A stretch of 64,000 nt of DNA from Lentisphaerae bacterium WC36 (GTDB lineage: Bacteria > Verrucomicrobiota > Lentisphaeria > Victivallales > SZUA-371). Below are positions 4,462 through 52,970 of the stretch, piece by piece (positions within the stretch are counted from its first letter, which is position 1; each line of letters begins with the position of its first letter). The notes under the pieces are model-generated. The model was not told the DNA's origin. It saw only the letters and a list, made by a program, of their open reading frames with translations, and made no database searches. A program made the translations under genes and the position numbers. The stretch spans positions 3,280,230 to 3,344,229 of the forward strand of contig CP085689.1 of assembly GCA_020683205.1 (NCBI GenBank), in the 5' to 3' direction.

Positions 4462-5148
4462 TTATTTATTTTTACTGCAATAATGATTTATTAAATCAGT
4501 TGGAGTTAATCCGCTGTAGTTCAATATTTCCTTAATAAGAAGGGTTTCATCACATTTATTATTTGTGCAGTAATCGTTAAAATTTATATTTAAATGAAAA
4601 TTGTCCTTAGCGAAATTATGAAAATCTATTGTTTGCTGAGAAAAGTTTTTATAGAGGTTTTTTTTATGTAAACATCCAAATATAAGTTGACAAGTTGTTG
4701 CTAAAAATGATGGTGTATTTATAATATTATTGTGCTTTATAATTGAGTGGTAGGATTCAAGTTGATCATATATTTTTTTATTAAGAAAAATTTCTCCAAC
4801 GTAATTAGCTGAACAAATTGCGTTTGTATTTTTAAAAAGATTATAAACCATTTTGGGAAGAGAAATAAAAAGAGTCCGAAATTTATTATTTGTTTTGATA
4901 TGACATTTTTCATATGGATGTAGTTGAAAAACCGTACCAGTTTGTAAATTGCAAATAATTTTTGAATTTTCTACTTCTAATGTAGCCGCCCCAGTTAAAA
5001 CAATAAATAAATTATAGTTTTCTTCAAGTTTACTAATTACCTTTAAATCTCCACAGGGTAGGGATCCCATGGCAAAAAAGACATCAGACTTATTTTCATT
5101 TTTGATACTTGTAAAAACGCAATCTAAAAAATTATATTCTTTAAACAT
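4462..5148 (-). CDS. AraC-like regulator with truncated DNA-binding domain
   Basis: The start is taken at the ATG at 5148, because GGAG stands 7 nt upstream; an in-frame TTG two codons earlier overlaps the SD. The sensor half aligns by eye with the full AraC proteins at 776 and 7648: FIVLTGAATLEV, then LQTGTVFQLHPYEKCHI, then LFISLPKMVYNLF. The C-terminus has one degenerate helix-turn-helix (FNDYCTNN to LTPTDLINHYCSKNK) and stops where the second HTH should begin. No second-HTH remnant is visible in the 60 nt past the stop. It could be a non-binding modulator of its paralogs or a decaying copy. It is convergent with the EEP-NPCBM gene. Confidence 0.75.
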   Translation of the reverse strand: MFKEYNFLDCVFTSIKNENKSDVFFAMGSLPCGDLKVISKLEENYNLFIVLTGAATLEVENSKIICNLQTGTVFQLHPYEKCHIKTNNKFRTLFISLPKMVYNLFKNTNAICSANYVGEIFLNKKIYDQLESYHSIIKHNNIINTPSFLATTCQLIFGCLHKKNLYKNFSQQTIDFHNFAKDNFHLNINFNDYCTNNKCDETLLIKEILNYSGLTPTDLINHYCSKNK

Positions 5149-18977: not shown

Positions 18978-19886
18978 TTACCCACGTAGAACTTTGTGGA
19001 TAATACTTCTTAACGCAATAGTTCCTAATAATTGATTATTTTCATCACTAACCAAAACAACATCAGCATCGCCTCTTGACAATGGGACGGTAAACTGAAT
19101 TAACGGAGTATCTTTGTTAATAATTAAATCAGGAGTTTTAGTGAACTCTTTAATTTTATGATTGTGTTCTTCTTTAAAAATTTTGTCAAAAGGTTCAAAG
19201 CTGGTGATAAATTTTAAATTGCTCATATCAAGAATGTATTGAGGGATGTAGCTTTTAATAATATCTTTTGCTCTTAAAACCCCTGAAATTTTTCCTTCAT
19301 TGTTTAAAACAACTAACTGTTGACGTTTTTCTGCAGTCATAATGTTAAGTGCGTTACTAAGCAAATCGTCTTCGGTAACAGTAATTAGATCTCTATTCAT
19401 TACATCTTCAGCAGTAACGTGTGATTTAATAGTAACTTTTTCACGGTTTAGTAAGTTGAGTAGTTCACTAGGATTTTTTTGTCCCACAAAATTGTTAAAA
19501 TTGTCTTTGTTTAATAAAAATCGGGTGAATGCAGCTAGACTTTTTAAATATAAATCACTCATTTCATCGGTGATTAAGGACATAATAACAACTTGCGACT
19601 CACCAAGGTCATAGTCTTTTAGTTTAACAGCATTAGGAAGTATGCCAATAATAACATATAAATCATTGACTTTATTGTTGCGCACATGTGGCAAGGCAAT
19701 TGATTCGTATGGCATTTTGATTGAGTCTTCGCGCTCAATGATTTCTTGATAAAGTCCATCAACGCTTAAAGAGTCAGGAAGTTGATTGATAACTTTTTCG
19801 AGCATCTCCTTATAAATTTCTTCTCGAGTATTCCCTGATAGATTACAAACAATATAATCTGGATTTAATATTGAGGTTAACTTCAT
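18978..19886 (-). CDS. PTS EIIA (fructose/nitrogen type)-like protein with CBS domain pair
   Basis: The start is placed at 19886 (MKLTSILN, 302 residues), with GGAG 7 nt upstream; an in-frame ATG 16 codons earlier encodes a basic stretch without support. Residues about 1-150 are an EIIA-2 domain with the phosphorylatable His in SIALPHVR. Residues about 170-300 hold two CBS motifs (AEDVMNRDLITVTEDD, then LLGTIALRSIIHKVL). No sugar EIIB or EIIC is nearby, so a regulatory role is more likely than sugar uptake. Location directly before nhaD suggests it senses energy or adenylate state to tune the antiporter (inference). Confidence 0.85.
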   Translation of the reverse strand: MKLTSILNPDYIVCNLSGNTREEIYKEMLEKVINQLPDSLSVDGLYQEIIEREDSIKMPYESIALPHVRNNKVNDLYVIIGILPNAVKLKDYDLGESQVVIMSLITDEMSDLYLKSLAAFTRFLLNKDNFNNFVGQKNPSELLNLLNREKVTIKSHVTAEDVMNRDLITVTEDDLLSNALNIMTAEKRQQLVVLNNEGKISGVLRAKDIIKSYIPQYILDMSNLKFITSFEPFDKIFKEEHNHKIKEFTKTPDLIINKDTPLIQFTVPLSRGDADVVLVSDENNQLLGTIALRSIIHKVLRG

Positions 19887-37951: not shown

Positions 37952-39031
37952 GTGCACTTTTTAAAGAAAAATAATCTTTTAAAGGTTAATGTTGATTATG
38001 ATGAAGCAACTATTGAAGATTTAAAATGGTACTTTATTCAAAAAATTTGTTCTCCTGCTTCGAGTTATGTAGTAAATAATTCGAGTAATGATATTTTAAA
38101 ATTAAAGTATCAATTTAAGTATAGTAATATTTTTAAACCTCATAAATATTCATTTTTGATTACAACAAGCTTTGAATTTTATTTCAAAAAAGATGATGAT
38201 GGACTATTGCAGATAATATATTCATATCATAAATCTAACCTAAATATATGGCTTTTTTTAGGAGTCTTATCTTGTTTTATAATTACTAAAAATCTACCAG
38301 TTTTGATTTTGTTTTTAATATTTGGAGGAGCAATATTTCTCTTTTTAACAATGATTTTACCTGATTTGGTAATTGATTATTTAACAAAAAAATTTGTTCG
38401 CAAAACATTCGGGGATGTTGAAATTTTTAGACCATCAAAGCTGAACTTACTGCAATTAAAACAACTTGATGCTATTGATAATATTAAAGAATTAAAAGAT
38501 ATTCGGGCAATTCCAAAATCATTCAAAAAATATTTTATGAGTGATATAAATCAGCAATTAGAATTGTTGCTTTTAATTTGCTTTGTGCCATTATTTCTTT
38601 ATGTTGGTTATATTATTTATGATACTGTTTTTAATAATTTGAAAATTAATATATCATCTTTCATGCCGTTGTTGATATATCCAATTATTACTATTTTAAT
38701 ACTATTGATGGGGATTTTATTCTATTCTGTTGCATGGCTTAAAATGAGAAAACAACTAAGAATTTTTGTTAAAGGAAATGAATACAACGCAGAAGTTACA
38801 AGAATTAAACACCTTTGTTATAAAAAGGGGCAAAACTATTTATATTCAAAAATTTATGTTAAAGTATTAATTCAGAGTGGTGAAGAAATAAATTGCTACG
38901 ATATTGTAAGGCGTGATACGGGCGAATTCATTGAAAACTTACCACTGCAACAAATTAAAGTTATTTATGCTCCAGAGATAGCAAAAAACCGTATTTTTAT
39001 TCCAATAAAATTATTAACGAAAGATAAGTAA
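37952..39031 (+). CDS. Unrecognised four-helix membrane protein
   Basis: The 359-residue protein starts at GTG 37952 with AGGGG upstream. Hydrophobic segments lie at about 92-103, 105-130, 206-228 and 240-262, giving two hairpins. The C-terminal cytoplasmic part (VKGNEYNAEVTRIKHL, then YSKIYVKVLIQSGEEINCYDIV, then VIYAPEIAKNRIFIP) resembles the DUF3592-type strand pattern seen in some secretion-linked membrane proteins. That resemblance is weak and by eye. It is separated from the preceding cluster by a terminator. Confidence 0.65.
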   Translation: MHFLKKNNLLKVNVDYDEATIEDLKWYFIQKICSPASSYVVNNSSNDILKLKYQFKYSNIFKPHKYSFLITTSFEFYFKKDDDGLLQIIYSYHKSNLNIWLFLGVLSCFIITKNLPVLILFLIFGGAIFLFLTMILPDLVIDYLTKKFVRKTFGDVEIFRPSKLNLLQLKQLDAIDNIKELKDIRAIPKSFKKYFMSDINQQLELLLLICFVPLFLYVGYIIYDTVFNNLKINISSFMPLLIYPIITILILLMGILFYSVAWLKMRKQLRIFVKGNEYNAEVTRIKHLCYKKGQNYLYSKIYVKVLIQSGEEINCYDIVRRDTGEFIENLPLQQIKVIYAPEIAKNRIFIPIKLLTKDK

Positions 39032-39071: not shown

Positions 39072-39240
39072 AAAAAAGAAGAGTCACTGTTGTAGGATGG
39101 ACAGTGACTCATCGGAGAGTACCTTAAATACAGCTATTGCAAAAGCTACAGCATATTTTCTCCGAAAGGGATTCTCTAAAAAATAACTTTTAGATTACCC
39201 ATAAGATGTTTTATTAACTCGCACTTTTAATAAAACAACA
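39072..39240 (-). ncRNA. Candidate structured small RNA with intrinsic terminator, downstream of ftsH
   Basis: Read on the minus strand, four hairpins follow one another. The first is a perfect 10-bp stem (39208-39217 with 39227-39236, loop AAGTGCGAG). The second pairs GGG/CCC and UCUAAAA/UUUUAGA (39168-39200). The third is a long composite stem closed by TCGGAGA/TCTCCGA (39159-39165 with 39112-39118); inside it AAAUAU/GUAUUU and GCUGUAGC/GCAAUAGC pair under a UUUU loop. The fourth is a perfect 10-bp terminator stem (39081-39110) followed by TTCTTTTTT. No ORF fits. It lies between the ftsH terminator and a convergent gene, so it is not a riboswitch leader. A TATATATAAA box lies just upstream (about 39250-39259). 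It does not look like 4.5S, tmRNA or RNase P RNA, and a single 6S-type rod is not evident. Confidence 0.6.
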
Positions 39241-39364
39241 TGGTTAGTTTATATATATGTCGTGAGACTTTGTTATTTATTAGGGAAAATTAGAAAAAAA
39301 ACTAAAAAAAATTATATTTTTTTGAAATATTATCTTTTGGGCTTAAAATTTAGGGATTAAAAAT

Positions 39365-39400
39365 AAAAAAAGCAACGATATAATAAATCGTTGCTTTTTT
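39365..39400 (-). terminator. Rho-independent terminator of ftsH
   Basis: AGCAACGAT (39371-39379) and ATCGTTGCT (39387-39395) are flanked by A6 and T6, so it is active in either direction. Confidence 0.9.
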
Positions 39401-39422
39401 TATTTTTAATGAATTGTAGCGC

Positions 39423-41588
39423 TTAGAAAATTGTTCTGTCGTTACTTTTATTTTCGTTTTCAGAGTCTTCTGAAGAAAGTTCTTCACTACTTTTATCCTG
39501 AACTGGTATATCAACAGAATTAACTGTAAAGGATTTCTCTTCTGCTGGGGCTTCAGTTTCTTCATCTGGATCGATTTTGAAATTAACATCAATTTCTTCA
39601 TAAGGCATGTCTAAGAGAGTTTTAACTTCTTTAACGTCCATAGTTTCTTTTTCTAATAACTCAAGACTTAGTGCTTCTAACTGATGACGGTAGGTTGTTA
39701 GAATTTCTTTTGCACGATTTTGACCATATTCAACTAATTTTTTAACTTCAATATCAATTTCGCGAGCAGTTTCTTGACTGCAACTATCCATGCCCTCACC
39801 ATGTTTTGTAGAATACGGATTTTCACTTTGAATGCGATATTTGATTGGACCAATTTTTTCATTCATACCGAATAAGCAAACCATTGAACGTGCAATGCGT
39901 GAAGCATGGTCAATGTCGCTTGATGCGCCGCTGGTTACATCGCTAAATACGATATCTTCGGCAACACGTCCACCCATTAACACTGCTAATTGGTCTAAAT
40001 ATTGTTGTTTGCTTTTCGTATAAACTTCTTCTTCTGGTAATGTTAATGTCACCCCTAAAGCTTGTCCGCGAGGAATAATTGTTACTTTATGTAACGGATC
40101 GGCAAATTCACAATGTAATGAAACTAATGCGTGTCCTGCTTCATGGTATGCTGTTAATTTACGCTCACGTTCGCTAATTTTGCGACTACGACGCTCTTTT
40201 CCCCAACAAACTTTATCGCGAGCCTCTTCGAAATCTGCCATAATTGCAGCATCACGCTCTTCACGAGCAGCTCCAAGAGCTGCTTCATTAACTAAGTTTG
40301 CTAAATCTGCACCACTGAAACCAGGAGTTCCACGTGCAATTAAATCTAAATTAACATTTTTATCCGCGCGAATTTTTGCTGTATGAACTTCTAAAATTTT
40401 CTTTCTGCCACGAATATCAGGTAAGTCAAGTACTAATTGACGGTCAAAACGTCCTGGACGTAGCAATGCTTGGTCTAGTACATCTGGGCGGTTGGTTGCT
40501 GCTAAAACAATCACTCCGCTTTGGGTTTCAAGACCATCCATTTCAACCAGCATTGCATTAAGTGTTTGCTCTCGTTCATCATTTCCTCCACCCATTCCTG
40601 AGAAGCGTGAACGCCCAACAGCATCAATTTCGTCGATGAAAATTAAGCATGGGCTATGTTTGCGTGCTTGTTCAAACATATCACGTACACGACTTGCTCC
40701 AACTCCAACAAACATTTCCATGAAATCTGAACCACTAATTGAGAAAAATGGCACACCAGCTTCACATGCAACAGCTTTTGCTAATAACGTTTTACCTGTT
40801 CCTGGAGGACCTGTTAATAATGCTCCTTTTGGAATTTTTCCGCCGAGCATTTGATATTTTAGTGGATCTTTTAAGAAGTCCACAATCTCTTTTACATCGT
40901 CTTTAGCTTCATCAGCCCCTGCAACATCGTCAAACTTAATATTTAAATCTTCTGGGAGTACCATACGGGCACGACTTTTTCCAAATTGCATTGCCCCCTT
41001 GCCAGCACTTTTTAGCTGTCTTGAAAAAATAAAATATAAAACAATTAGCAATAAAATAAATGGTAAAATCGAAATTAAAATTTTTGAAAATGTTCCTTTT
41101 TGCTGGAATGTAACAACTGGAGACTTGCCCATAATTGTTTTAATATTATGAATATTATTTAACAAAGCATCACTTTCATTTGATTTCCCAATAGTCGTAT
41201 AATAATTACCTAATTTATAAGACTCAGCGCTAATAACAATTTTTTTGATTTCAGCAGCTTTTTTTTGAGTTTTTTCTTCACTTGAGATTGTTTTTTGATC
41301 TTTAGTTTCAAGCTTCATATTCTCTTTTGGTAAATAGTAGTACTTACCAGAAATTGACATCATATTTGCTTCAATATTATTTACTTCAGCAGTTTTGATT
41401 AAACCTGCTTTGAACTTTTCAACAAATTCAGTTCCGCTAAACTTTTTTGTTGAACCAAAAATGTCTACACTTCTATTAAAAAGCATCACAAAGAAAAGTG
41501 ATAGCACTATCATCCAAATTATTACTGCTGGTGAAAATGCTTTCCCTTTAAAACTTTGTGGTAACTTATTTTTTTCTTTATTTTCCAT
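39423..41588 (-). CDS. ftsH: ATP-dependent zinc metalloprotease FtsH
   Basis: The 721-residue protein has two N-terminal transmembrane helices (about 17-37 and 168-188) around a periplasmic domain. An AAA+ module follows ([16 protein letters not shown], and the second region of homology [18 protein letters not shown]). The M41 protease has the zinc motif HEAGH and a [10 protein letters not shown] segment carrying the third ligand. The acidic, Glu/Ser-rich tail after the protease is longer than in E. coli. It degrades membrane and regulatory proteins, including LpxC in some LPS-making bacteria. It is monocistronic, with its own terminator. Confidence 0.97.
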
Positions 41589-52648: not shown

Positions 52649-52726
52649 TGGTCGGGGTAGCAGGATTCGAACCTGCGACCCTTTGGTCCCAAACCAAATG
52701 CGCTAGCCAGACTGCGCTATACCCCG
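52649..52726 (-). tRNA. tRNA-Pro (anticodon TGG), copy 1
   Basis: A 78-nt minus-strand cloverleaf with acceptor CGGGGTA/TACCCCG, D arm TAGCGCAGTCTGG, anticodon loop TTTGGGA, T arm GGTTCGAATCC and an encoded CCA. It is identical to the copies at 52759 and 52893. Confidence 0.97.
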
Positions 52727-52758
52727 ACTTGAGGTGAACTTCATAAAAGCTTGAAAAA

Positions 52759-52836
52759 TGGTCGGGGTAGCAGGATTCGAACCTGCGACCCTTTGGTCCC
52801 AAACCAAATGCGCTAGCCAGACTGCGCTATACCCCG
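52759..52836 (-). tRNA. tRNA-Pro (anticodon TGG), copy 2
   Basis: Identical to copy 1 over all 78 nt, with a 32-nt unrelated spacer on the left and 56 nt on the right. Confidence 0.97.
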
Positions 52837-52892
52837 GATCAAAATTTTATTCAGTTGTAATTGCCAAAAAATAACCATAATTAGAAAAAAAA

Positions 52893-52970
52893 TGGTCGGG
52901 GTAGCAGGATTCGAACCTGCGACCCTTTGGTCCCAAACCAAATGCGCTAGCCAGACTGCGCTATACCCCG
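52893..52970 (-). tRNA. tRNA-Pro (anticodon TGG), copy 3
   Basis: Identical to copies 1 and 2. On the minus strand this is the first of the three to be transcribed. Confidence 0.97.

Follow-up and report, generated by a model that had tools for sequence, protein, structure and literature searches.

A 64,000-nucleotide window of the genome of Lentisphaerae bacterium WC36, a single contig of 3.66 Mb, carries a structured minus-strand element between ftsH and a convergent membrane-protein gene. From its sequence and predicted fold we consider this element a plausible candidate for an orphan sRNA, ordinary in kind. The reading that we favour, tentatively and with somewhat less than an even chance of being right, is that of a lineage-restricted, free-standing intergenic sRNA of ~170 nt, which would extend from 39241 to ~39072 on the minus strand and pair with mRNAs through exposed segments.

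Folding of the minus strand from 39241 to 39072 yields four successive hairpins, with energies of approximately -5.6, -9.3, -18.7 and -13.5 kcal/mol. Hairpin 1 (39207-39237) has an 11-bp A+U-rich stem and a 9-nt loop; hairpin 2 (39168-39200) has an 8-bp stem, a UUAU loop and a weak GGG/CCC base (pair probability ~0.54); and hairpin 3 (39112-39165) combines a UCGGAGA/UCUCCGA base, a one-sided 7-nt bulge (AAGGUAC), an upper stem with two G.U pairs and a UUUU loop. Hairpin 4 (39072-39110), which reads as a one-way intrinsic terminator, joins the arms GAGUCACUGU and ACAGUGACUC (39110-39081) in a perfect 10-bp stem with the 10-nt loop CCAUCCUACA, followed by UUCUUUUUU at 39080-39072. Folding thus confirms the four consecutive minus-strand hairpins of the earlier note, the last with a perfect 10-bp stem and a U tract, at a level beyond that of shuffled sequences. 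Its description of all four as strong holds for hairpins 3 and 4 only, hairpin 1 being A+U-rich and hairpin 2 weak at its base.

The minimum free energy (MFE) of the element (minus strand, 39240-39072) is -51.5 kcal/mol, against a mean of -28.8 in 200 dinucleotide shuffles (z -6.46), none of which folded as well. Because long perfect terminators abound in the genome, several single ones within the window having a lower z than the element, this total energy is not in itself unusual; what stands out is how many hairpins there are. A set of four domains, each at -5 kcal/mol or lower, arose in one of 600 shuffles and in three of 169 intergenic regions within 464 kb of this genome (the window and 20 sampled stretches). 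These counts, together with the one-way terminator at the end of the element, make it very improbable that the hairpins are functionless chance palindromes in a fast-evolving, AT-rich spacer, an explanation that could otherwise draw on the lack of conservation and on the strong folds in other intergenic regions of this genome.

The U tract of hairpin 4 is found on the minus strand only, with none after the plus-strand version of the hairpin; several other terminators in the window have A and U tracts on both flanks and would work both ways. Similarly, three G.U pairs form on the minus strand (A.C if read on the plus strand) as opposed to one on the plus strand, and the MFE on the minus strand compares with -46.8 kcal/mol on the plus strand. 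The plus strand holds a 29-codon ORF, not mentioned in the earlier note, over hairpins 3 and 4 (39097-39186; MDSDSSESTLNTAIAKATAYFLRKGFSKK), with a codon score above that of 95.5% of the 25-40-codon ATG ORFs in the window, and if this frame were translated, or a relic, the hairpins could be incidental. We think this scarcely likely, as the score falls only in the bottom part of the range for real genes, the sole AGG abuts the ATG so that no ribosome site stands at the proper spacing, the peptide had no relative in 60 genomes, phages or Pfam, and the four hairpins and minus-strand U tract would be left unexplained.

The gene ftsH occupies 39423-41588 on the minus strand and is followed by a strong, near-perfect terminator of the A-stem-U type (~39364-39404). 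This terminator is bidirectional, ending ftsH on the minus strand and the convergent transcript on the plus strand, which bears out the earlier statement that the element is separated from ftsH by ftsH's own terminator. No minus-strand gene was found between this terminator and hairpin 4. A one-way terminator without a gene in front of it, in addition to ftsH's own, points to a further, separate transcript of ~170 nt, and this terminator preceded by no gene is the best argument for it. The element's behaviour as an independent transcript, proposed earlier, is supported on the same grounds. An sRNA is also expected to have its own 3' Rho-independent terminator, not shared with a gene, and hairpin 4 with UUCUUUUUU is such a terminator.

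It is rather unlikely that the element is instead an extended 3' untranslated tail of ftsH in which hairpin 4 acts as a back-up terminator for read-through transcripts. The element lies on the same strand, begins ~180 nt past the ftsH stop, and has hairpin 4 in the minus direction, all in keeping with such a tail, but the first terminator is near-perfect, three extra hairpins are unneeded for tandem terminators, and relatives have a different gene after ftsH and no comparable tail. The stem of the ftsH terminator (AAAAAAGCAACGAT...ATCGTTGCTTTTTT) has a near-identical second site in another sampled stretch of the genome (L160, ~19826-19870), giving two copies in the 464 kb sampled, and this suggests a copied terminator.

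The convergent gene, on the plus strand at 37952-39031, encodes a membrane protein of 359 aa without a relative in 60 related genomes. The nearest named relatives of FtsH are mostly from Lentisphaeria MAGs, and among the comparison genomes the closest three belong to the bacterium's family, none to its genus; in the two same-family genomes that gave a match, the C-terminal halves of FtsH are 63-66% identical. Synteny is not kept in relatives, where another gene (DUF167-like, judged by eye) comes after ftsH. Taken together, the absence of the convergent gene from 60 relatives and the different gene after ftsH there indicate that this entire locus is specific to the lineage.

Among the rival readings that name a definite target, the strongest is that the element acts as antisense RNA against this convergent gene's 3' tail. 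The RNA would then be a cis-antisense RNA whose hairpin loops kiss the complementary loops of the plus-strand mRNA, leading to RNase III cleavage or a block to read-through. No hairpin with a U tract was found on the plus strand between 39031 and 39364, and the plus mRNA therefore has no intrinsic terminator before 39364-39404, a point absent from the earlier note. Its 3' tail may thus run across the whole sequence complementary to the RNA; hairpin 4's loop is necessarily complementary throughout to its plus-strand counterpart, and the convergent gene and the RNA are both missing from relatives. We nevertheless judge antisense action somewhat improbable, since the overlap would fall in the 3' tail, outside the coding part, the plus gene could terminate by Rho or another route, and some such overlap occurs in many convergent pairs.

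Under the free-standing sRNA reading, transcription would start from an AT-rich promoter just upstream of the element. A -10-like TATAAA, read from the sequence at 39248-39253 on the minus strand, together with ATAACA (39271-39276) and a 17-nt spacer, matches nine of 12 sigma-70 consensus bases, and a start at ~A39241 is predicted from this weak candidate promoter. The TATAAA is part of a TATATATAAA box (39248-39257), which the earlier note had placed upstream of the hairpins; the box is indeed present on the minus strand at 39257-39248, but it carries no weight as evidence because chance alone would put 1.08 copies in the window, such boxes occurring at chance level in this AT-rich DNA. It is missing from the promoter scanner's list, base 6 of the second hexamer being A.

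To look for relatives, a covariance model was built from the single sequence. No homologs were recovered with it in 137 genomes of the order, in 12 genomes with laxer settings, or in 197 genomes of the class, and in its own genome the model found only the element itself, which is therefore single-copy by this measure. The sole match below 0.01 was a look-alike terminator hairpin; the matches in genome G078 represent a different hairpin, GGGCUGUUGC-UUUU-GCAACAGCCC, which is similar to hairpin 3 in the upper stem alone and has the look of a terminator of that genus. BLAST for copies in the own and related genomes, plasmids and phages returned only short AT-rich matches, and the exact hairpin-4 pattern was absent from viral contigs. 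The lineage-specific character suggested earlier is supported, with no relatives among the 197 class genomes even within the same taxonomic family. Because only fairly close relatives are within reach of a model built on one sequence, and searches with more than 40 genomes used stricter filters, absence outside the genus is what would be expected of a fast-evolving sRNA and is no proof against function.

Comparison with Rfam, both at gathering cut-offs and at E up to 10, gave chance matches only, far below the cut-offs, consistent with the earlier failure to match the element to 6S, 4.5S, tmRNA or RNase P by eye. 6S RNA is like the element in length (about 170-190 nt) and in intergenic position, but it folds as a single long, irregular hairpin opened by a central bubble, unlike the four separate hairpins here, and neither RF00013 nor RF01685 (6S-flavo) matched; 6S RNA was set aside for these reasons. 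In the order more broadly, RF00013 was above cut-off in none of 41 genomes (the own genome and 40 relatives), the best signal being a weak match of 24.4 bits, below cut-off, in genome G036, and 6S RNA may be diverged or missing in this order. Acido-Lenti-1 (RF01687), a structured RNA described in Lentisphaerae (PMC2864571), had no match up to E = 10. A tracrRNA was ruled out, there being no Cas9 in the genome (no cas_Csn1 match), and a sponge RNA of the CsrB/RsmY type was rejected, GGA being absent from all four loops and from the bulge AAGGUAC. Hfq (TIGR02383) was not found in the genome, which speaks against an Hfq-dependent trans-sRNA.

If the element is a free-standing sRNA, hairpin 1 would cap its 5' end and hairpin 4 its 3' end, making for a stable RNA. 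Its unpaired segments are the loop CCAUCCUACA of hairpin 4, hairpin 1's loop and the 7-nt bulge in hairpin 3; these could base-pair in trans with mRNAs, without Hfq and most probably at their translation starts. The UCCU within CCAUCCUACA is complementary to AGGA-type ribosome-binding sites, and since many genes in the window have AGGA/GGAG-type sites ahead of them, such sites could be targets of this loop. Pairing through a terminator loop has a precedent in RepG (HPnc5490) of Helicobacter pylori (PMC8295292), likewise an independent intergenic sRNA with an exposed terminator-loop pairing region, although that role is only proposed here; RepG has no sequence relation to the element, and the G-repeat that it binds is recognized by a C/U-rich loop (PMC8295292). 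The more far-reaching idea, that the element represents an Hfq-free new class of regulatory RNA confined to one little-studied Lentisphaeria lineage, with the ten-base terminator loop directed against ribosome-binding sites, or a diverged functional stand-in for the 6S RNA that escapes Rfam in this order, is unlikely.

Of the earlier proposal of a regulatory RNA specific to this lineage, the structured minus-strand element, its one-way terminator and its lack of relatives stand, with transcription and regulation still putative. An orphan intergenic sRNA candidate is a common kind in itself; species-limited sRNAs are frequent, and over half of the sRNAs of C. glutamicum seemed species-specific (PMC4046766). 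The open literature searched appears to contain hardly any description of small RNAs of Lentisphaerae, and this one, if confirmed, would offer a starting point for the study of RNA regulation in a phylum whose member here appears to be free of Hfq.

Other sites in the sampled sequence also contain RNA genes or strong folds. Three tRNA-Pro(TGG) genes stand in tandem in the window (52649-52970) and score identically in Rfam. At 4522-4760 of sampled stretch L162 the plus strand forms very strong intergenic hairpins (MFE -58 to -62) that match nothing in Rfam, and an intergenic region of stretch L167 (7600-8180), with four strong hairpins and a repeated sequence (TTGGCGT...GCTAACAAAATTAACTC...) on both sides, looks recently duplicated.
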